Origin: Verrucomicrobiaceae bacterium
GTDB taxonomy: Bacteria > Verrucomicrobiota > Verrucomicrobiia > Verrucomicrobiales > Akkermansiaceae
Assembly: GCA_027487355.1 (NCBI GenBank)
Contig: JAIYDT010000492.1
Coordinates: 1-33,388, forward strand
Reading direction: 5' to 3'
DNA: 33,388 nucleotides
A model generated the notes under the pieces. The model saw only the letters and a list, made by a program, of their open reading frames with translations, was not told the origin of the DNA and did no database searches. The position numbers and the translations under genes were made by a program. Shown here in pieces: positions 2,704 to 33,388 of this stretch. Numbering within the stretch: position 1 is the first letter of the stretch; the number at the start of each line of letters is the position of its first letter.

Positions 2704-3239
2704 TCCGGAAGCGCAAAGCCAGGGGCGATAGCAAGCTCGACAAGCTCAAACCCGAAAGCCGGGTTTTGGAGCTGCGCGACTTGTTGCTCGCAGGCGCGAC
2801 CTACAAGGAGGCGAAGGCCTGGCTGTTGGAAACGTGCAACACGACCACGACCGGCGATGCGCTGATGCACTTCTGGCACCGTCATTGCCAGCCAATCAAG
2901 GATGAGGAGATGAGTCTGGCCGCCGCTGCCGCCGAGGGTCTGGTGGACCGGGCCGGTGCAGTGGACTGGGACACGGCGATCACCGAGTTCATGAAGCAGA
3001 CGACCTTCGAGATCATCAGTGGTCAGGAAGTCGATGCGAAGACGAAGGCGATCTATGCGCGGAACTGGGTCAAGCTGAAGGAGAGCAATCAAGCCGCCGC
3101 GAAGGCGAGGGAGTTCGTGCGTTCCAAGGAGGAGGCGGGGATCGATGCGCTGTTGGATGCCGTGAAGGGCGACAAGCAAGCAGAGGATCTGCTGCGCCAG
3201 CTCAATGAGCGCCTGGCCAAGAAGGGAGGTGCCGCGTGA
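2700..3239 (+). CDS. DUF3486 / Mu gp27-like protein (probable small terminase)
   Basis: RKRKARGDSKLDKLKPESR..LRDLLLAGATYKEAKAWL; position immediately upstream of large terminase. Confidence 0.65.
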   Translation: MIRKRKARGDSKLDKLKPESRVLELRDLLLAGATYKEAKAWLLETCNTTTTGDALMHFWHRHCQPIKDEEMSLAAAAAEGLVDRAGAVDWDTAITEFMKQTTFEIISGQEVDAKTKAIYARNWVKLKESNQAAAKAREFVRSKEEAGIDALLDAVKGDKQAEDLLRQLNERLAKKGGAA

Positions 3240-5245
3240 TCAAGCAGCGTGGTGCCGTGGCGAGATTGAGCGAGAAGCTCTCCGGATCGTCCAACGGAGC
3301 AGCTCCAAAGGTGGCGTCGTTCCGTGAGTTCCTTGAGCGTCATGCCAAGGTGAAGACTCCCGGTGGTGAGTATGTGCAGTACTCGCTGGTCGGTCGTGAG
3401 GCCCTTATCCCGATTGTCGAGACCTTTGATCTGGTGCTGGGATCTCACACAGGCGAACCGCTGCCTGACTCGACCATTGACCTCTGCGGCGGTGCTCAGT
3501 TTGGGAAAACGATTCTAGCCCTTAACTTTGGGATGTATCTCACGGCCTGCCAGTTCAGGAACTGGGGCTATTACCTTCCCGACGATGATCTGGTGGAGGG
3601 CATCGTTGACGCCAAACTTCGCCCGGATGTGATCGAACAGATCGACTGGCTCGGTCCTCTGATGCAGGTCGGCAAGATGGATGACAAGCGAGGCCGGTCC
3701 GTCAACCGCAAGGGCGCGTTCCAGGTCAGCGACGGCAAGCGCAAAGCTCAGGGCATGATCCGTGGCATGGGCAAGATTCCGACGTCATTCTCGATGGATG
3801 CCGTGATGGAAGACGAGAAGGACGACATTCCGGCGAAGCGGTCCAAGTATCTCACCGGCCGTATGACGGCCTCCGATCTGCGACTGCGGTCGTCGATCGG
3901 CACGCAGCGTCTCCATGCAGCGGGACAGCAGAAGCAGTGGGAGGATGGCTCCCAGGGCATTTACGTTTTCGATGTCGGCGGGGATCGCACGATCAACCTT
4001 GAGGAGAATTGGCCAGCCTGCTGCCGCCTGGCGGTGGATGGGAAGCCATCGCCGACCGATCCAAAGCTGACCAATGCCGGAGAGTTCCGGGATGACAAGG
4101 GAAACGCGTGGCCCTATCAGCCAGGTGCGAACTACTACTTCGCCGATCCAGATACGGGTCATGTGATCGACCGGAGCCAGCCGATCCTGAAGCATTTGAA
4201 GCCTGAGCGGATCAAGCTGCGCAAGTGGTCGTTCCGGATCTCGCAATTCGCGATCGGCGCGATGCCGATCAATCAGTTCGTCTCCCGGTGGCAGGACGCC
4301 ATCAAGGATCCGGAGATGATGGTTGTGTTCCGTTGCGATGTGATGGCGCTGCCATCGAACGTCGAGCAGGCGATCAATCCCGAGGTCATTCTCCGGGCCC
4401 GCACAGTGGAAGCGCCGTTTGATCTATCATTGGCTCCGGCCGCCGTTCCTCGCTTCGGTGGGATGGACACGGGCAACCGTTGCTGGTTCGTGAGCCGAGA
4501 CGTTTTCAGCGATGCAAGGAAACGCATCAACTGGGCGGAGCAGATCCCGCTTTCGCAGATGGTCGCCCGCGCCGAGTCGCTGTTCTACAAGCTCGGCCTG
4601 AGCTGCCTCTCGATCGATGCCAACCCGGCGGTCAATCAGGCGATCGCCCTTTGCTACAAGCTCAACGGCCTGGAAGATATCGACTGGCTGCCGTTCAATG
4701 GAAAGCCAGATGAGGCCCGCCTCCAGTTCCCTGGTGGACTGACATGGAACGGGGCCAGCAAGCGCTGGGAAGGCCTACGCTGTTTCGTGGTGGAGTTCTC
4801 GGTGAAGCAAGGCGGCGGCATCGTCCACAAGCTGGGCATCGATCCCCAGGGCGGGTTCAACAAGTTCTACCCGGTGATTCGCTGCAACCGCTTCGAGTCG
4901 ATTGACCGGGTGGTGAATGAGTTCCTCACACCCGCTGAGAACGTCATCCGGGTAGTGGATGGCAAGCTGCTCGAAGAGCCGGTGATGCGCCTGCCTCGAA
5001 AGGAGACTGGCTGCCTTCCGATCGTCGAGACCTTAGAAGCCCATCTCATCACCGGATCGAAGCGTGACAAGGGCAGCGACGGCGAGGCCTCCGACTACGT
5101 CGATAAATGCGAGAACCACCTGATGCTCGGCAATGCCTACTCGGCACTGTCGGAGCTGATCGGCGGGCATGCGGTGGTCGCTGCCCCGATCGAATCAGAG
5201 ACCATTGAACGCCCTCGTCGGGACCGTGGAAGGAGGGCGCTGTGA
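3236..5245 (+). CDS. Phage terminase large subunit (Mu gp28/GpA-like)
   Basis: Walker A-like CGGAQFGKTILALNFG; acidic MDAVMEDEKDDIP; FGGMDTGNRCW nuclease-like segment; 669 aa. Confidence 0.8.
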   Translation: MIKQRGAVARLSEKLSGSSNGAAPKVASFREFLERHAKVKTPGGEYVQYSLVGREALIPIVETFDLVLGSHTGEPLPDSTIDLCGGAQFGKTILALNFGMYLTACQFRNWGYYLPDDDLVEGIVDAKLRPDVIEQIDWLGPLMQVGKMDDKRGRSVNRKGAFQVSDGKRKAQGMIRGMGKIPTSFSMDAVMEDEKDDIPAKRSKYLTGRMTASDLRLRSSIGTQRLHAAGQQKQWEDGSQGIYVFDVGGDRTINLEENWPACCRLAVDGKPSPTDPKLTNAGEFRDDKGNAWPYQPGANYYFADPDTGHVIDRSQPILKHLKPERIKLRKWSFRISQFAIGAMPINQFVSRWQDAIKDPEMMVVFRCDVMALPSNVEQAINPEVILRARTVEAPFDLSLAPAAVPRFGGMDTGNRCWFVSRDVFSDARKRINWAEQIPLSQMVARAESLFYKLGLSCLSIDANPAVNQAIALCYKLNGLEDIDWLPFNGKPDEARLQFPGGLTWNGASKRWEGLRCFVVEFSVKQGGGIVHKLGIDPQGGFNKFYPVIRCNRFESIDRVVNEFLTPAENVIRVVDGKLLEEPVMRLPRKETGCLPIVETLEAHLITGSKRDKGSDGEASDYVDKCENHLMLGNAYSALSELIGGHAVVAAPIESETIERPRRDRGRRAL

Positions 5246-5411: not shown

Positions 5412-7403
5412 ATGGCACCCAAAGCTCAAAAGACCCCGGATCCTGTGTTCGGAGCCGACTCAATCAAGTCGGCTCGCCGGGCACGCTACAACCCGCTCCG
5501 GACTCTGACGCCTGAGACCCTGACCAGGGCTCTCGACGCGTTCGAGTATGGTGACCTGCGTGAGTTCGCCTTGTTGGCCGAAGTGGTCGCGGATCGGGAT
5601 GACACCTTGAAATCGGTGAAGCCGAAACGCGAGAAGGCCACGGCCGCCCGCGAGTGGAAGGTGCTGAAGCGGGACAAGTCCCCCGAGGCGGAAAAGCATC
5701 AGGAGATCCTGAAGGCGTTCTGGGACAATGTCCGCGCCGAGAATGCCTATGACCGCAACGAGCGCGGGGGCATGGGACGCCTGATCAAGCAGATGATGAC
5801 CTCCGTCTCGTATCGCTACGCGGTGCATCACATCGTGTGGCGGCCGGAGCCGGGCCGCCTCCGGGCGACGTTCGAGTTCGTGCCACTGTGGTTCTTTGAG
5901 AATCGTGAAGGCCGGCTGCGGTTCATCCGCGATGGCGTCGGCGTGATCGGTGAGGAAATGGACCCGAGCGAGTGGATGGTCACCTATGGCGATGGTCTGA
6001 TGATCGCCTGCCTCATTGATTACCTGGGCAAGAAGTTCTGCACCCAGGACTGGCTGGCATTTTCTGAGAAGTTTTCGATGCCGGGTGTGCTCGGTCGGGT
6101 GAGCGCGGGCAAGGACACGCCAGCCGGGAAGGCAATGAAGTCTGCCGTCGAATCCTTCGGTCAGGATTTCTCCGCCGTGGTCTATGGTGACGACGGCACG
6201 GCCAAGATTGAGCTGATCCAGCCGAATGGTTCACCGACCGCGATGCCGATGCCTGCATTCATCGAGCGGGCCGACCGCAAGATGGCTGCACTCTATCGCG
6301 GAGCCGACCTCAGCTCGATGTCGAGCAAGGACGGCGAGGGCACGGGTGCCAGCCTCCAATCGGACGAGACCGACACGCTGGAAGCCGATGACTGCATGAC
6401 GATCTCTGAGACCTTGCAGGAGGTCGAGCGCGAGGTCATCCGCTGGCACTTCGGTGAAGGGGTGGAACCGCTGGCTTACATCGAGGTGCAGCCGCCGGTG
6501 CGAGTGGACAAGAAGTTCATCCTGGAGGCGGTCACCGCCCTTCAGAAGCTGGGTGTTCGCTTGTCCGTTCAAGAGATTTTGGAAGCTCTTGGCTTTTCCG
6601 AAGCGGATGCCGGTGATGTGGCGCTCGGGGAGACACAAGACATCAAGATTCAAGACTCAAGACAAGATCCTGTGGCGAACGCGGCTCAGCCGGGTGCGAT
6701 GAATGAGCTGATCGACTCTCTCCAGGCGGATCTGCAACCACTGGGCAGGGCTCTCGAAGGTGCCTTGATGGCGGATGATTTCCCAGCGATGCAGACCGCG
6801 CTGCGGATGATCTCCGAACGCATGCCGGAGTTCATGGACTCCCAGTTGCTGGCGGCCGCGATCGGTGATGAGCTGGTGGCGGCTTTCACGGGTGGGGTCA
6901 CTGCGAACGCTTTCGATCCTTCCCAGTCCCGCGACATCCGTGGCCGCTGGTCTGAGGGTGGCGGCGGCGGATCTTCATCCGGAGATTGGAAATCGAACGG
7001 CCTGTTGCCAGGTGCCAAGATCGTGCCGGATGAAGGCCATGCTCCGGTGCCTTCCTACAAGGCGGCGGCGAGGCTGATGCAGGGGGAGACCGTTCTCGAT
7101 GACCGCTCATCCCCTGTGCTCTTCAATGATGAGCTGATGGATCATTGGAGCGACAAACCGCGACAGGAGATCAAGAAGCGTCTCAGTGAGCTGGATGACG
7201 CGGTGGGCGCGGTGAAGAACCCCCACGAAGTTTGGCAGAAGGCCAACCAGACAGTCTATCTCAGGAAATACAGCGGCAACGGCCCTGTGCGTTGGATGGC
7301 TGTGTATGTCCCGAACGGGAAGGGCCGGACCTACTATTCCTCGGATCGAATCAACAAAGCGGACGAATCCTTCAGGCAGGGGAAGCTCCTGCGAACCAGA
7401 TGA
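5412..7403 (+). CDS. DUF935 (Mu gp29-like) portal with C-terminal PBECR-type nuclease-like domain
   Basis: AREWKVLKRDKSPEAEKHQ..IVWRPEPGRLRATFEFVPLWFFENREGRLR; C-term SRDIRGRWSEGGGGGSSS linker then VKNPHEVW..YLRKYSG..WMAVYVPNGKGRTYYSS. Confidence 0.75.
   Translation: MAPKAQKTPDPVFGADSIKSARRARYNPLRTLTPETLTRALDAFEYGDLREFALLAEVVADRDDTLKSVKPKREKATAAREWKVLKRDKSPEAEKHQEILKAFWDNVRAENAYDRNERGGMGRLIKQMMTSVSYRYAVHHIVWRPEPGRLRATFEFVPLWFFENREGRLRFIRDGVGVIGEEMDPSEWMVTYGDGLMIACLIDYLGKKFCTQDWLAFSEKFSMPGVLGRVSAGKDTPAGKAMKSAVESFGQDFSAVVYGDDGTAKIELIQPNGSPTAMPMPAFIERADRKMAALYRGADLSSMSSKDGEGTGASLQSDETDTLEADDCMTISETLQEVEREVIRWHFGEGVEPLAYIEVQPPVRVDKKFILEAVTALQKLGVRLSVQEILEALGFSEADAGDVALGETQDIKIQDSRQDPVANAAQPGAMNELIDSLQADLQPLGRALEGALMADDFPAMQTALRMISERMPEFMDSQLLAAAIGDELVAAFTGGVTANAFDPSQSRDIRGRWSEGGGGGSSSGDWKSNGLLPGAKIVPDEGHAPVPSYKAAARLMQGETVLDDRSSPVLFNDELMDHWSDKPRQEIKKRLSELDDAVGAVKNPHEVWQKANQTVYLRKYSGNGPVRWMAVYVPNGKGRTYYSSDRINKADESFRQGKLLRTR
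6635..6666 (+). repeat. Class III short-period repeat inside portal CDS
   Basis: acaagacatcaagattcaagactcaagacaag, translated DIKIQDSRQD. Confidence 0.65.
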
Positions 7404-7498: not shown

Positions 7499-8632
7499 AT
7501 GAAACCAAATCTCTTCAACTTCCTTTTCCGCCGCCGTGATGTGGCCATCAACTCCGGCAAAGTCCGCGCCATCGGCGTCATTGCAAATGCCGCTGCCCTC
7601 AGCGGTGGCGAGTGGGAATTGATCGCTCCCTACGGCGATTTCCCGACTGCCGACAAAAAGAAGATCCAGCGATTCACCAAGGCTGAGGCCGATCAGATGG
7701 TCGCGACCTTCAACTCAGTCTTCCACAAGCTCGGCACTCTGTTCCGTGGCGTGCCGATCTTCCACGGCCATCCGGACGTCGATCCGAAGAACTGGCCCGA
7801 TGATCGTCGCCTCGGAAAGGTGACCGCTCTCGAAGCCCGTGCAGACGGCCTCTATGGCAAGCCGGAATACAACGCCCTGGGCGAGCAAAACAAGACTGAG
7901 GGCTGGTGGGTCTATCCCTCGCCCGCATGGCTCTTCCCGCGCACGGCCGCCAACGTAATCCAGCCCGACGAGCTGCTGTCCATCGGCCTGGTGAACACGC
8001 CGAACATCCCCGGCTCCGTGCCGTGGTCGCAGAACTCCGGTGAACCGCTGCCGGAGGACGAACCCGAATCTCCCACGTCTGAAACCGACACCATCATGAA
8101 AGAAAAACTGTGTGCCCTCCTGGGCCTCGATCCCGCGACTGCCACCGACGATGAAGTCGTCGCCGCCGTCACCACCATGAAGTCCGACGCTGCCGCGAAA
8201 GCGACGGCTGAGGAGAACGCCCGCCTCGCCACCGATGCAAAGAAGACGGCAGAGACTACTGCCGCCAATTCACGCAAGGTTGGTGCCGATGCGATCGCCG
8301 CCGTTGCCATCAAGGCAGGCAAGCTGACCGAAGCTGACCGCGAGGCCACCGTGAACAGCCTGATCGCTCCGGGTGCGGACATGGTCGCCCTGGCCACTGC
8401 CATCGGTGAAAAGAAGCCGACCCTCAACACCGGCGCGCTCGAAATCGGCGGTCGCAAGGTGGCGATCAGCAACAGCCGGGAACGCGCCGCCGCGATCCAG
8501 GTCGAAGTCAACAGCCGCATGCAGTCAAGGGGCCTGTCCTACGACGATGCTTATCGCTCGGTCGAAACGGATCCGCAGTTCAGCCAGCTCTTCGCGGCGA
8601 TGAAGAAGCCGGGCGAAGAAGGTGCCGAGTGA
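7499..8632 (+). CDS. Mu I-like phage protease with C-terminal scaffold region
   Basis: GVPIFHGHPDVDPKNWPDDRRLGKVTALEARADGLYGKPEYNALGE..GWWVYPSPAWLF; Ala/Lys/Glu-rich C-terminus. Confidence 0.75.
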   Translation: MKPNLFNFLFRRRDVAINSGKVRAIGVIANAAALSGGEWELIAPYGDFPTADKKKIQRFTKAEADQMVATFNSVFHKLGTLFRGVPIFHGHPDVDPKNWPDDRRLGKVTALEARADGLYGKPEYNALGEQNKTEGWWVYPSPAWLFPRTAANVIQPDELLSIGLVNTPNIPGSVPWSQNSGEPLPEDEPESPTSETDTIMKEKLCALLGLDPATATDDEVVAAVTTMKSDAAAKATAEENARLATDAKKTAETTAANSRKVGADAIAAVAIKAGKLTEADREATVNSLIAPGADMVALATAIGEKKPTLNTGALEIGGRKVAISNSRERAAAIQVEVNSRMQSRGLSYDDAYRSVETDPQFSQLFAAMKKPGEEGAE

Positions 8633-11801: not shown

Positions 11802-11824
11802 CTGGCGACAGGAATGTCGCCGCT
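11802..11824 (-). repeat. 23-bp hairpin element, copy 1 (ctggcgacaggaatgtcgccgct)
   Basis: Exact reverse complement of 25816-25838; internal GGCGACA-GGAA-TGTCGCC hairpin. Confidence 0.85.
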
Positions 11825-11828
11825 CCTT

Positions 11829-12836
11829 ATGGCTGATCCGATTCCAGATCCAATTTACGATGCCCTGGTGAAAGCCCAGGAGCGGAAGGCGCTGCCGACG
11901 TCGCTCTCGACGGCGCAGCTCCGCGAGCTGTCGGCTGGGATCAGGGCGCGGGCGATCTTCACCGCGCGAGGTGCGAGCACGCTCTTCGCGGATGCGCTGA
12001 AGCGGATCATTGACGCGATGACCGATGGCGCCATCGACGAGGGCAGTGCAAGGGTGGCCATTCGGGAGACTCTGAAAGCGCTTGATTACACCCCAGAGCG
12101 GGGTTTTCCGGATGTGCCGGAAGGTGAGGTGCCGCCAGCGCTGAAGGGCACCATCGAGGACCTCAGCTCGATGCGCCGGCTGAATCTGATCGTGAACACG
12201 CAGCGCGATCTCTTCGCAGGGGCGGGGCAGCAGATGCGCGGGCACCAGCCCGAGGCGCTTTCCAACTTTCCGGCCTGGGAGCTGATCCGAGTGGGTGAGG
12301 TGACGGTGGCCCGTGACTGGCCTGCACGATGGGCGCTTTCCGGCGGTCAACCGATCCCTGAGAGCTATCCGCAGAACGCGCATCAGAGTCTCGGCAAGAG
12401 CACCGGCATGATTGCCCTGAAGGGTGACCCGGTGTGGGGTGAGCTGGGATCGAGCGCCAATTTCTCGGATGCCTTGGATGTGGATTTCCCTCCGTTTGCG
12501 TTCAACTCGGGGATGGGTTGGCGGCCGGTGCCGATCGAGCGTTGTCTGGAACTCGGAATCACTGGACCGGATGGGCAGTCGATCGAGGAGTTCCACGCTG
12601 GGATCGAACGGCCTCGGGTCATTCTCGGAAGCCTGCCACTGCCCACGCCGCAAGTGTCCCTGAAGGACGTGGATCCGAAGTTGATCGAGGCGTTCAAGAA
12701 GTCCACCGGCGCGAAGCCGGGAGCGGCTCCCAAGGTGGTGAACTACTCGGATATCCTGGAACGTTCCGTGGCCAGAAGCCGGGCGGCCTATGGTGCTGCC
12801 AATCCGGACTACAACCTGGAGGGACCACGCCGATGA
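11829..12836 (+). CDS. Phage head protein (possibly Mu F-like minor head)
   Basis: MADPIPDPIYDALVKAQERK..LRELSAGIRARAIFTARGA..DEGSARVAIRETLKALDY; track start 11814 lies inside the hairpin element. Confidence 0.45.
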   Translation: MADPIPDPIYDALVKAQERKALPTSLSTAQLRELSAGIRARAIFTARGASTLFADALKRIIDAMTDGAIDEGSARVAIRETLKALDYTPERGFPDVPEGEVPPALKGTIEDLSSMRRLNLIVNTQRDLFAGAGQQMRGHQPEALSNFPAWELIRVGEVTVARDWPARWALSGGQPIPESYPQNAHQSLGKSTGMIALKGDPVWGELGSSANFSDALDVDFPPFAFNSGMGWRPVPIERCLELGITGPDGQSIEEFHAGIERPRVILGSLPLPTPQVSLKDVDPKLIEAFKKSTGAKPGAAPKVVNYSDILERSVARSRAAYGAANPDYNLEGPRR

Positions 12837-25838: not shown

Positions 25839-26101
25839 CAACCTCGCGCAGAAGGCCCAGTCTCATCGCTTGGTCCGGGCCTTCGGCTTCGGATACAGAA
25901 TCCGCTTCTCCGTTTTTCCACAAGCTCGCGGTAAGTCTCTGAAGACAACCTTTCCGTAACCAGCTTCCGGATTGCCGAGGTCACGGAAAACAGTCGTCAT
26001 CCGGAAGAGATCCGCTAGCCTTCAGGCGATTTCGTTTTGTTTGTCCATGTTGACCAGTCGCCGGAAGAGCCGGTGGGCTGGCTGTTCCATTGTTTCCGAT
26101 C

Positions 26102-29100
26102 ATGAATGCTCTCAAACCCATCCGCGCCTTTTTGAAGCTTGCCGCCACTTGGCTTTTCCCGGGCCTGGCACTCGCCCAGTACAACTACTTCAATGTTCCG
26201 AGCAATTCGGACTGCATCATGCAGGACTACCGCTCGCCGAACGTGCCCGGAGGGATTTATGATGCGATGCATCAGGATTATGTGAGCAGTTCGGACGGTG
26301 GCTCTGGTTATTTCTACGGCGGGTACACCCACCAGAACAACGGCGGCACCAACACCCTGGTGCAGTATGTCTGCTGGCCCGCGAGCGGTGGTTTCGCCCC
26401 GTATTCGCAGCAGATTCCGACTTTTGCCGGAACCAACATGGTCGGCTACGCCCAGATCGGCGAGGGCAGCAGTTGCGCGATCAAGGGCTACTGGCCGCAG
26501 TTCAGCTCGAACCTCTGGACCCGCGAGGTGGTCCGCTACTGGCAACCGGCGGATGGCACGCCGCACGTCGGCTATCAGGGCATGTGGATGAAGGATCCGA
26601 CGACCGGTTTCTGGCATCATCTTGGCACCTTCATGTATCCCTTCGCCGTCACCGGGGTGAACGGCATGGCCGGCTGGCAGGAGAACTTCGTTGGCTACAC
26701 CGGAGATTACAAGGTCGCCCGGGCCGGCGGCTACTATCACAAAAGCGGGGCCTGGCAGCGCGCCAACCAGATCAGTTTCACCTCGAACGGAAAGACCTAC
26801 TCCACCACGGACGCCACCTATCCGACCAGTTTCGCCCAGTCCGATGTCGGGCCGACGTTCTCGGCCCAATACAACAATCCGAACACCGTCACGCTGGCCG
26901 ACCAGCCCGCCCTGCCGACCTTTGATCCGATCGTGATCAACAGCTCGACCGCCACCGTCAGCGGCTCGCAGCTTCTCGTGCAGTGGCAGATGCCGCTGAC
27001 CAGTTCGCCGCAACTCAGCTACAAGATCGAGGTCTTCAACAACTCCGCCTACACCGGTTCGGCGGCGATCACCTTCACCGACAATGAGCCGGACACCCGA
27101 CAGAAGCTCCTGAACATCTCCGGCGTCGCCACGCCCTATGTGCGGCTGACCATCACCGATATCTTTTATAACAACAGCACGCCAGTCCTCATCACCCCGA
27201 CCACCGCCACCCTCAGTCCGGCGACTTCGGTCTCCGGCGCGGTCGCGGGATTGAACTACAAGTACTACCAGGCCGCCTCCGGCACCTGGACCGTGCTGCC
27301 GGATTTCACCGCTCTTACCGCCACCCGTCAGGGTGCGGTGAACTTCCCGGATGTGACACCGCGGTTGCGGCGCACGAATTATGGGTTCACCTACACCGGT
27401 TACTTCAATGCCGCCACCAGCGGTCTGTATGCGTTCACCCTGCGATCCGGGGATGGCAGTGCGCTGGTCATCGATGGAACGACGGTCATCGACTTCGATG
27501 GCCTGCATGACTCCACCCAGTTCAAGAGCGGTGGCATCGCCCTGGCCGCCGGACCCCACACGCTCACGCTGCGCTATTTCAGGGGAAATCCTCCCGGAGT
27601 GAACACCACCGTTTACAACGACGGCATCGGCCTTTCCTACGAAGGTCCGGGAATCAACGCCGCCGATGTGCCCGCCTCCGCCTTCACGCGGGTGGCCGCC
27701 GGCAGCGAGCCGAGTGTCGCTCTAACAGCTCCGGCCAACAACGCATCGGTGATCAACTCCAGCACCGGCGTCAGTGCCGCGGTCACCGCCAACGGGGCCA
27801 CGATCAACAGCGTCCAGTATTTCCTGACCGACAACTACTCCTACTACCCAAGGCCCAACAAGGCACCGGATTACTTCGTGGGCCAGGATGCCACGGCTCC
27901 CTACGACCTGAGCTCGATGGTCTGGACGTCGGCCAGCAACCCGATCCGCGCCCGCGTGGTTTACAACGGCACGAACACCATCGACTCGCCTGCCATTTCC
28001 ATCACCACCACGAACCCCTCCCTTGGCGACTGGATCTGGAATCCCCTGGAAATGCACAACTATCCATCCGGAGCCAGCGTGCAGGGAAACAAGGTCTCCA
28101 TGATCGGTGACGGCATGAACCTGATGAGTCGTCAGGTCACCGGCGATTGCACCTTGATCGGCCGGCTCGCCGACATCACTCCGAACACTGCCGGGCCCGA
28201 CGGCATTTTACCGGAAGGCGATTGGCGCGGAGGGATCATCCTCCGCAGCAATGCCAACACGACCATCGGCGAGCCACTCGGCAACGGCAGCGGCACCCGA
28301 TTCGTGGCGCTCTTCAGCTCAGTGGACGGCGGCACCTATTTCCAGGACGATTCGATGACCAACGGCAACGGCGATGCCAACCGCTGGTCCTCGAATCTCG
28401 GCGGCAGCAACAAATGGTACAAGATCCAGCGGGTGGGAAACCTGTTCACCAGTTATGTGTCGGCGGACGGCGTAACCTGGAATGCGGTCAACAGCATCAC
28501 CATCGCGAACTTCGGCGCCACGATCCATGCCGGTGTCTTCATCCATGCGGTGCAGTCCTTCAACCCCAACCTCCATCGCGCCAGCTTCGATGGCTTCAGC
28601 CTGACGGGCGCGGCCGTCGTCGGGCCGGCCAGTGTCTCCATCAGTCCGCAATCCACGGCCGTGGTTAAAGGCATGCCGGTCACCTTCTCGGCATCTGTCA
28701 TCGGCCCGGTGCCGACAGGCTATCAATGGAAGTTCAACGGCACCGACATTCCCGGTGCCACATCTTCCACCTACACGATCCCGTCCGTCGCCGCCGCGAA
28801 TGCCGGCAGCTACTCGGTCGTGGCCAATGCCGTGACCAGCTCCGCCGCGGACCTGACGATCAGCACTCCGCCTGGATCCGGTGTGTGGACCAATGCCGCC
28901 GGCGGACCCTGGACAACGACCGGAAACTGGAGCGGCAACTCCATCGCCAGTGGCACGGATGCGGTGGCCGATTTCAGCACCCTGAGCTTCACGGCCAATG
29001 CCGCCGTCACCCTCAATGGTGCGAGGACCGTTGGCGCGATGGTGTTTGATGACCTCGATGCCACGAAGAACACTTGGACGGTCAGCCAGAATACCAGCGG

Positions 29101-32100
29101 ATCCCTGACCCTCGCCACGAGCAGCGGAACGCCCGCGATCTCGACCAATGTTCCCACCACGATCAGTGCGGTGGTCGCCGGAACCCAGGGGATGTTCAAG
29201 AATGGAACGGGAGCGCTGACGCTTTCCGGAGCAAGCACGATTACCGGAACCGTGCAGGTGACGGGAGGCACCCTGGAGGTCTCCAACAAATCCGGCGACT
29301 GTCCCTACAGCGTGAGTTCTGGGGCGACCCTCAAGATCGGCTACAACACCGGTGGTGGATACGCGAACACCAACCTGGTGATCAACGGCGACGGGGTGGC
29401 GGCGACCACGGGCTTCTACCTCGCGGGTGGAAGGACCTACAATGCCAGCGGCCAGATCATCCTCCAGGCCGCGCCGACGACGATCCGTCAATACGGCAGC
29501 GGACTGGCAAAGATCGGCACCTTTGATGTCAACGGCAACGGGCTCTGGTGCACCGCCAACGCCTCGGGTTCCGTCATCGATGCCAACGTCCAGATCGTCA
29601 GTTCGGGATTCGGCATGTCGATGGACATCGATCCCGGTGCAAGCACGCTGACCGGTGACCTCACGATCAACGGATCCCTGAACATCGGAAGCCTTGGCTT
29701 TTACAAGCGTGGACCCGGTTCCGTCCTCTTGAAAGGCGCGGCAACCACCAGCAACACGGCTGTCAGGGCGCTGGAAGGATCCGTGCTCTGCGGAGCCACC
29801 AACTGCCTGGGAACCGCGGCCGCAGTCCCGGTCTCCTCCGGTGCGAAGCTTTCCTTGAACGGCTACAGCCAGACCGTGGCCTCGGTCACCGGTTCGGCGG
29901 GCGGAACGATCTCGTTCGATGGCGCGAACACCCTCACCGCCACCACGGCGACCCTCGGCGGAGCCTTGCAGATGACGGTCAACAAAGGCGCAACGCCAAG
30001 CAGCAGTCGTCTGGTCAGCACCAATGCCCTCGCGTATGCGGGAACACTTTCGATTGCAATCCAAGGGGCCACTCCCCTCGCTCAGGGCGACTCCTTCCAG
30101 CTCTTCAGCGCCCCGAGTTACAGCGGATCATTCACCAGCATCGCCCTGCCCAATCTGCCGGTTGGTCTCGCGTGGGACACCAGCGCGATCGCCACCACCG
30201 GGTCGATCAGCATCATTTCCGCAGGAAACAGCCAGTGGAATGGTGGCGGAGCGGACACCAACTGGAGCAGCGCCCTGAACTGGAATGGGGTGGCACCCGC
30301 CAACAACCAGGTGCTGACCTTTGCCGGAACCACCCGTCCGACTTCGGTCAACAACCTCCTGACCTCCGTGGGCCGGATTGTGTTCAGCAACGGCGGCTTC
30401 TCGCTCTCTGGCACGGCGGTCACGCTTCAATGGGGCATCGTCCACCAGGCGGGAAACAACACCTGGGGAGTGCCCACGACATTGCTCGCCCCGCAGTCCT
30501 ATACCAGCGACGCAGGCACCCTGACCATCAGCGGAACCACCGCGAACGGCGGATTCGATCTCACCCTGGATGGAGCAGGAAATCATACGGTCTCGGGCGT
30601 GATCTCGGGCACGGGCGGTCTGGTGAAAAGCGGCACCGGCACGGCGGCGCTCTCCGCCAAGAACACCTACACCGGCCTCACCACGATCAACGGCGGCGTC
30701 CTCAATCTAACAGGCAATGGCGGCAGCACCGGCACCATCCGCGGCACCGCCACCGTCAACTCCGGAGGAACCCTTCGTCTCAGCACCGGTGACGCCACCG
30801 GCTACAGCGGGGGATCCGCGGCGCTGACCGTGATCAATCTAACAGGTGGCACGCTCAACGTGAACACCACCTCCAACCAGACGCTCGGCAGCGCCGTCAT
30901 CAACATGACCGGCGGCACCATCAGCGGACTCAGTGGCGGCAACATCGACTTCTTCGGCGGCGGTTCGGCCCTCAACACCTTCGCCTCCAGCACCACCTCG
31001 GTCATCAGCGGCGTCCAGCTTTCGCCCCTGCGCCAGGGCAGCACGACCTTCAACGTGGCCGCCGGGACCACGGCCTCGGGCATTGATCTCGACATCTCCT
31101 CCGTCCTGAAAGGCGCTGCCGCCGGCGATGCGGTCGGGGGCGTGCTGTTCAAGGATGGAGCCGGAACGATGAGGCTTTCCGGTGCCAATACCTACGCGCG
31201 GGCCACGACGGTCAGCGCCGGAACCCTTCTCGTGAACGGATCACTCGCGGCGGGCAGCACGGTGACGGTCTCGACGGGCGCGACGTTGGGCGGAAGCGGC
31301 ACGATCAATGGGCCCACCACCGTGTCCAGCGGCGGAGTCATCGCCCCGGGAAGCCTCGGACTGGGCACCCTGACCCTCAACAACACGCTTTCTCTTTCCG
31401 GAACAGCAAGGATGGAGATCGGCAAGACCGGCCCGACTCTGACCACCGACCGGATCAGCGGACTGACCACCGTGACCTACGGGGGAACCCTTGAGGTAAC
31501 GAAAACCGGAACCACCGATCTGGTGGCGGGGGATTCGTTCCAGTTGTTCAGCGCGACCACCCGCACGGGTTCCTTTTCAACCATCAGTCTCCCGGTTCTG
31601 ACCACAGGGCTGGTCTGGGACACCACCGCGCTTTCCACCACCGGAACCATCGTGGTGGCAAAGGGCCCCCAGACCATCAGCTTTGATGCCCTCGCCGGGA
31701 AAACGTTTGGCGATGCGGCTTTCATCCTGACCGCCACGGCCAGCTCCGGACTTCCCGTTAGCTATTCGAGTTCCAACACCTCGGTCGCCACGGTTTCTGG
31801 AAGTACGGTGACAATCGTAGGTGCGGGCTCGACGACGATCACCGCCTCGCAGTCGGGCAATGCAAGTTACCTGGCCGCCACAAGTGTCCTGCAGACCCTC
31901 ACGGTCGGGAAGGCCGCGCAGACCATCAGTTTCGGAATCCTGGCGGCAAAGACCTTCGGGAATGCGGCCTTCAGCCTCACTGGGACCTCAAGCTCCGGTC
32001 TTTCCGTCAGCTATTCGAGTTCGAACACGGCCGTCGCAACCGTTTCCGGCAGCACCGTGACCATCGTCGGTGCCGGTTCGACCACGATCACCGCCTCCCA

Positions 32101-33388
32101 ATCCGGCACCACCAACTACCTCGCGGCGACGAGTGTTCCCCAGACGCTCAGCGTGGGACAGGCATCCCAGACGATCACCTTCGGAACCCTCGTATCGAAG
32201 ACCTTTGGCGACGCCACGTTCAGTCTCGGCGCGACGACGACCTCCGCTCTGCCAATCACCTATGTGAGCTCGAATCCTGCGGTCGCGACGATTTCGGGAA
32301 ATACGGTAACTCTCGTAAGTGCGGGCTCGACCACCATTACCGCCTCACAGCCCGGCAACACCAACTACCTCGCGGCGACGAGCGTGCCACAAACCCTGAC
32401 CGTCAATCAGGCGTCGCAGACGATCAGTTTCAGCGTCCTGGCCTCAAAGACCTACGGCGATACCTCCTTCAGCCTTGGTGCCAACGCCAGTTCAGGTTTG
32501 CCCGTCAGCTACGCGAGTTCCAACACAAGCGTCGCAACTGTTTCCGGAAGTACGGTGACCATCGTCGGTGCGGGCTCGACCACGATCACCGCCTCACAGC
32601 CCGGCAACACCAATTACCTCGCGGCAACCGGTGTTCCTCAGACGCTGACGGTCGGTCAGGCCTCGCAGATCATCACCTTCGGGACGCTCGCTTCAAAGAA
32701 CTTCGGCGATGCCGCCTTCAGCCTTGGAGCAACCTCGACCTCTGCACTGACAATCTCCTATGCCAGCTCAGACCCGACAGTTGCCACGGTCATCGGCAAC
32801 ACCGTCACGATCGTCGGCGCAGGCTCAACGACCCTCACCGCCTCACAGCCCGGCAACACCAACTACCTCGCGGCGACGAGTGTTCCCCAGACGCTCAGCG
32901 TGGGACAGGCATCCCAGACGATCAGCTTCGGCGTCCTGGCCTCAAAGACCTACGGCGATACTTCCTTCAGCCTTGGTGCCACCGCCAGTTCTGGTTTGCC
33001 CGTCAGCTACGCGAGCTCCAACACCAGTGTCGCAACCGTTTCCGGAAGTACGGTGACCATCGTCGGTGCCGGTTCGACCACCCTCACCGCCTCACAGCCC
33101 GGCAACACCAATTACCTCGCAGCAGCAAGCGTCCCACAAACTCTAACGGTAAATCCGGCAAGCGCCCAGGTAAGTCTCGGCGATCTCACCTCCAACTACG
33201 ATGGAAGCGCCAAACCGGTGTCCGTCACCACCACTCCGGCCGGTCTGTCCGTAGAGGTGACCTACAATGGGTCTTCAACCGTTCCGATCAATCCAGGCAC
33301 CTATGCAGTGAACGCCGTGGTCACCGATCCAAATTACACAGGCAGTTCTTCCGACACCCTGGTGATCGTCAATGTCCTCACCGTGGTC
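26102..33388 (+). CDS. Giant secreted multidomain surface protein, 3' incomplete (>2429 aa; absent from ORF track)
   Basis: Single open frame to window end; signal peptide [29 protein letters not shown]3472-like (26180-26920), PA14-like (27240-27660), autotransporter-associated beta-strand repeats (about 28870-31650), six 83-aa repeats, MBG-like end. Confidence 0.85.
31670..33163 (+). repeat. Six tandem 249-bp (83-aa) coding repeats
   Basis: Units start 31670, 31919, 32168, 32417, 32666, 32915, each exactly 249 bp; consensus [83 protein letters not shown]. Confidence 0.95.

Follow-up and report, generated by a model that had tools for sequence, protein, structure and literature searches.

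The internal proteins and Alt of phage T4 carry a capsid targeting sequence that is cleaved by the prohead protease. Temperate phages encode MuF polymorphic toxins, in which a head-interior protein of the packaging module bears an exchangeable C-terminal domain (Jamet et al. 2017, PMC5576092). Fusions of PBECR domains to portal and MuF proteins have also been described (Iyer et al. 2017, PMC5512222; Pfam PF18810), and the PBECR active site combines a His in the N-terminal helix with a Ser/Thr in strand 4 (PMC5512222). Here we analyzed a 33,388-nucleotide stretch (the window) from a Verrucomicrobiaceae bacterium, contig JAIYDT010000492.1 of assembly GCA_027487355.1. It contains a Mu-like prophage in an Akkermansia relative, and the portal protein of this prophage ends in a PBECR2 domain, a predicted ribonuclease (RNase). 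Because portal-PBECR fusions have been reported, the window protein belongs to an already described kind, sharing with those fusions the domain family, the portal carrier, the His and Ser/Thr active-site pattern, and the phage context. What differs here is that the C-terminal slot is followed across orthologous portals, that cargo is seen to alternate with the MuF gene, and that a recurrent linker is recognized. The linker motif is not discussed in the main text of PMC5512222, where the word 'linker' does not appear, and the recurrent linker motif classes are less expected than the fusion itself.

The window protein resembles the MuF polymorphic toxins in combining a head-interior protein of the packaging module with an exchangeable C-terminal domain. 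Unlike in those toxins, the cargo is on the portal rather than on MuF, and a candidate small immunity open reading frame (ORF) downstream is absent. Like the T4 internal proteins and Alt, it would place an effector inside the head, and its short linker motif could serve an analogous role in targeting or cleavage. However, the window motif is internal, between two domains.

The PBECR2 domain and the portal C-terminal slot

The ORF at 5412-7403 (+ strand) encodes 663 residues. Its portal core (DUF935/Portal_Mu, PF06074) spans residues 56-394 (5577-6593; Pfam E = 7.5e-51; PHROG 113, portal, E = 3.6e-32), and this domain together with a Mu-like protease as the adjoining gene identifies the protein as a Mu-type portal. 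The linker (6912-6983) consists of the motif FDPSQSRDIRGRW at 6912-6950 and then a Gly/Ser run. The PBECR2 domain follows at residues 524-663 (6981-7400). An initial annotation, made from the letters of the DNA, had proposed a portal fused to a PBECR-type domain at 6906-7403; both the linker SRDIRGRWSEGGGGGSSS and the C-terminus given there lie in the portal's frame, and the domain is indeed of PBECR type, matching the PBECR2 family. Searched in isolation against Pfam, the tail matches PBECR2 (PF18810) over residues 559-659 with E = 5.7e-4.

Searching the proteins of 388 genomes of the phylum yielded matches in 18, with clear relatives in 13 genomes in addition to the window's own. Three matches without the domain's invariant residues (L019, L020, and L021) and a short fragment (L017) were not counted among the relatives. 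PBECR2 was matched by 13 of the 14 full-length proteins scanned, several of them over the cut-off (best 1.2e-10), among them L005, L016, L011, and L018. Since relatives exceed the cut-off and a PBECR2 family search of 14 control genomes gave a match in at most one of them, under the cut-off, the window match is not a chance one. The domain is carried by Portal_Mu proteins (L005, L016, and L003 from IMG/VR), Phage_Mu_F proteins (L011, L012, and L013), Phage_min_cap2 proteins (L007 and L010), and L014, a large protein of polyvalent type that also matches a metallopeptidase. Seven columns are invariant (H578, R590, P604, E606, W608, R655, and G657 in window numbering). In the alignment of relatives, His578 (7143-7145) is kept in 15/15 and the column of Thr640 (7329-7331) holds Ser or Thr in 14/15, in agreement with the active-site pattern described for PBECR domains (PMC5512222). 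The domain is also present in small-genome members of the family to which the window's genome belongs, and one relative, L257, is an Akkermansia muciniphila prophage, so the host is likely Akkermansiaceae-like, within Verrucomicrobiota.

Other searches were less informative. NCBIfam gave no match, a tblastn search of annotated phages with the domain found nothing, and a Protein Data Bank sequence search with the domain and its profile returned chance matches only (major histocompatibility complex, beta-2-microglobulin). A second PF18810 match in the genome (C516, E = 0.12) was dropped because its frame, which runs antisense to a glycosyltransferase-like ORF, is spurious. The excluded L017 (G216:C83), from a genome of the same genus, is a 26-residue piece that shares 73% identity with the end of the PBECR2 domain and looks like a prophage remnant. 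At L054:7756-9361 (+), a minor-capsid-2-like protein is followed by two PBECR2 domains in neighboring frames, which may reflect duplication or splitting of the cargo.

When the phylum was searched using just the portal core, 44 genomes yielded related portals; of the 30 fetched, most had the length of a plain portal. Plain orthologous portals are about 507-550 residues long and lack the C-terminal region. The C-terminus of one of them, L263 (...AEAFAGTTPTN), aligns to ...VAAFTGGVTAN in the window protein, just ahead of AFDPSQSRDIRGRW. Because the plain portal stops exactly where the window linker begins, the PBECR2 domain is added cargo, and a fold common to ordinary portal C-termini, which the initial annotation had set against its own interpretation, is excluded. 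The portal of L275, which comes from the same genus as the window, has at this junction a GNSDGAIKGWETRRRNGW linker and then a PBECR3 domain (6.8e-9, over the cut-off). In L274, the junction is followed by a zinc-ribbon-like stretch and a PBECR1-like domain (0.0011, under the cut-off). Thus, the C-terminal slot in related portals holds PBECR2, PBECR3, a PBECR1-like domain, or nothing.

Cargo alternates between the portal and MuF. The window encodes a separate MuF-like minor head protein at 11814-12836 (+), which matches the PBECR2-bearing MuF-like protein of L009 (BLASTP 4e-25) and the Phage_Mu_F protein of L012 (1e-14). Pfam does not recognize it as MuF, a hidden Markov model search did not find PBECR2 in it, and it carries no cargo domain. 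When carriers were scored with portal, MuF, and PBECR2 profiles made in this analysis, cargo was on the portal only in eight modules (the window, L048, L024, L049, L050, L257, L288 with PBECR3, and L289 with a PBECR1-like domain) and on MuF only in three (L023, L027, and L051). None of these 11 cargo-bearing head modules with both genes seen had both carriers loaded, although they do not represent eleven independent events because L257 (an Akkermansia muciniphila prophage), L024, L049, and L050 are closely related. L290 has cargo on neither protein. A MuF-like protein of a same-genus prophage (L291:4936-6378, -) has a C-terminal extension of ~200 residues, a candidate cargo of another family.

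Recurrent linker motif classes

The window linker belongs to a recurrent class, QPRDxxGRWT. The L048 portal is 69% identical to the window's over its length and instead has GDYLGHPYRGNQWGGGD, of the class GHPYRGNQW, at the same spot; in L049 and L050 the linker is GTSEGARKGWDKRGRG. The classes QPRDxxGRWT, KGDYxGHPFRGNQWT, and GTSEGAKKGWETRR recur in phage head and effector proteins, including those of the window, L048, L187, L194, L197, L252, and others. Strict coding-pattern scans of IMG/VR found QPRDxxGRW in at least 120 stretches, GHP[FY]RGNQW in 79, and the GAxK[GA]WETR class in 15. These scans uphold the earlier suggestion that the linker is of a type found in phage head proteins ahead of effector domains.

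Analyses of QPRDxxGRW rest on 80 loci among the matches listed. Within this set, domains in the motif-bearing ORFs included ADPrib_exo_Tox (8/62), Phage_Mu_F (5), three portal families (8 in all), Zeta toxin (2), and single cases of Tox-REase-5 and Colicin E5; PHROGs also assigned portals, minor head proteins, and head proteases. Products of the ORFs with GHP[FY]RGNQW include ADP-ribosyltransferases, XkdF-family phage proteases, MuF, Zeta toxin, and topoisomerase IB. The head proteins joined to effectors by linkers include Portal_Mu, Phage_portal, portal_2, portal_3, MuF, and head proteases, and the effectors behind them ADP-ribosyltransferase, Zeta-toxin, PBECR, and other domains. For example, L189 has Phage_portal at residues 102-349, the motif at 527, and Zeta toxin at 598-755, and in L123 MuF is followed by the motif and then by weak metallopeptidase-like and ADP-ribosyltransferase matches. 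Among annotated phages, each class matched once, the proteins being labeled 'internal head protein' in Xanthomonas phage Rb1 and 'capsid maturation protease' in Nocardia phage P3.1.

The motifs are also unevenly placed. Of 70 complete ORFs, 33 have GHPFRGNQW within their first 60 residues and none has it within the last 60, and copies within one protein are a median of 227 residues apart. Up to six GHP[FY]RGNQW copies occur in one protein, ahead of further domains (L194, 1957 residues), and nine within one 9.6-kb stretch. At least two copies are present in 35 of the 79 contig pieces with this motif, while QPRDxxGRW is also present in three of the 79; conversely, one of the 80 listed QPRDxxGRW pieces also has GHP[FY]RGNQW. 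Single contigs therefore tend to favor one linker class. Shuffling the residues of the ORFs left no linker motif copies, a control that speaks only to second copies, because the contigs were picked by the motif.

Several results limit how the motifs can be read. Not every QPRDxxGRW match is meaningful, since some strict matches fall in proteins seemingly unrelated to heads (e.g., L061 and L062). Exact-motif scans of the 388 genomes gave one match (L308) and none, which establishes no more than the scarcity of the strict motif in the phylum's cellular DNA; the window linker itself is missed because S replaces P. A literature search for the motif strings found nothing relevant. We tentatively suggest, at somewhat less than even odds, that QPRDxxGRWT, KGDYxGHPFRGNQWT, and GTSEGAKKGWETRR can stand in for one another as forms of a single virion-cargo tag or processing site, put ahead of proteins or domains so that these are loaded into the head or freed inside it. 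The idea of one functional element is based on the joining of unrelated head families to effectors, the N-terminal bias, the repeated copies, the use of one class per contig, and the swap of classes between portals that are 69% identical.

Proposed role of the portal-borne domain

We propose, with a probability of roughly 65%, that the PBECR domain is portal-borne cargo that is carried in the head, is exposed or released at ejection, and cuts RNA early in infection. Since portal C-termini point into the capsid, about 12 cargo copies per particle would lie inside the head near the DNA exit. The domain would be released or exposed during ejection, perhaps through cutting of the linker by the head protease whose gene adjoins that of the portal. 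The freed domain may then cut host or defense-related RNA as infection starts. RNase activity, which for a BECR enzyme would be metal-independent, is a prediction, as are the head-interior location, injection, and whatever the linker may do, and we infer packaging and injection solely from the domain's place on the portal.

The predicted fold is consistent with this proposal. An AlphaFold model of the domain, built from an alignment of the window, L048, L049, and L050, reached a predicted local distance difference test (pLDDT) score of 81 as the best of five (the others, 47-59); a full-length model (pLDDT 36) was of no use. The domain model has short helices followed by five strands, with His578 closing a helix and Thr640 opening strand 4. 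Among viral predictions (Foldseek, BFVD), polyvalent phage proteins ranked near the top, with probabilities of 0.99-1.00 and TMq about 0.5. Other points weigh against the proposal. The window PBECR2 match scores below the Pfam gathering threshold (20.5 versus 27.1 bits). Foldseek matched the model to no solved structure, including BECR (best E = 0.07), and the viral E-values were weak (8.9e-3 at best), so sequence and model topology, rather than structural superposition, suggest a BECR fold. The portal remains in the virion, and injection would therefore require a release step. Finally, some PBECR domains, such as that of phage Mu gp30, are considered inactive (PMC5512222).

The example of gp30 raises the possibility that the PBECR2 domain has lost its nuclease activity and serves as an RNA- or DNA-binding or structural appendage within the head, and a structural role would fit attachment to a structural ring protein. 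We consider this unlikely because the active-site His and Ser/Thr are kept in nearly all relatives and the slot takes differing PBECR families, as expected of effectors rather than of a structural part. Somewhat less likely still is that the domain acts late in the producing cell, on transcripts before lysis, with the portal merely limiting or localizing it. The portal is synthesized in that cell, and T4 RegB, an RNase with the BECR fold, targets transcripts of the phage itself (PMC5512222); however, carriers as unlike as the portal, MuF, and minor capsid protein 2 point to the virion location as their common factor.

The gene order bears on whether the domain is a MuF-type polymorphic toxin aimed at competitors and paired with an immunity protein. 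A Mu-like head protease/scaffold of the gpI type (7499-8632, +; Mu-like_Pro, PF10123, E = 4.5e-15) is encoded directly after the portal, starting 95 nt downstream. No small immunity-like ORF separates the two genes in the window, L048, L024, L049, or L050, five modules in which the portal-PBECR2 gene directly precedes the protease. The initial annotation was thus right that no immunity gene lies immediately downstream, and its idea of an anti-competitor RNase is weakened for the same reason; we regard such a toxin as improbable, despite the exchangeable C-terminal domain that it would share with MuF proteins. That an ordinary portal C-terminus has been mistaken for an effector domain might be argued from the sub-threshold score of the isolated match, but the shorter plain portals and the presence of the domain on unrelated proteins rule this out for practical purposes.

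Two further genes of the window deserve mention. A large gene (3236-5245) precedes the portal at the position of the terminase; it has no significant Pfam match, and a homologue occupies the same place in L003. At the other end, an open frame of 2433 residues (26090-33388) continues past the window edge and matches PATR repeats, PA14, Ig, MBG_3, and DUF3472; it probably encodes an autotransporter-like surface protein of the host, next to the prophage.

Altogether, comparison across Akkermansia-type phages makes a clear case for the portal C-terminus as a slot in which predicted RNases are exchanged, with MuF as the alternative carrier. The short linker motifs could allow virion-carried effectors to be found systematically. 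Moreover, if these motifs are loading or cleavage signals, how phages select the proteins that enter the head becomes directly testable.
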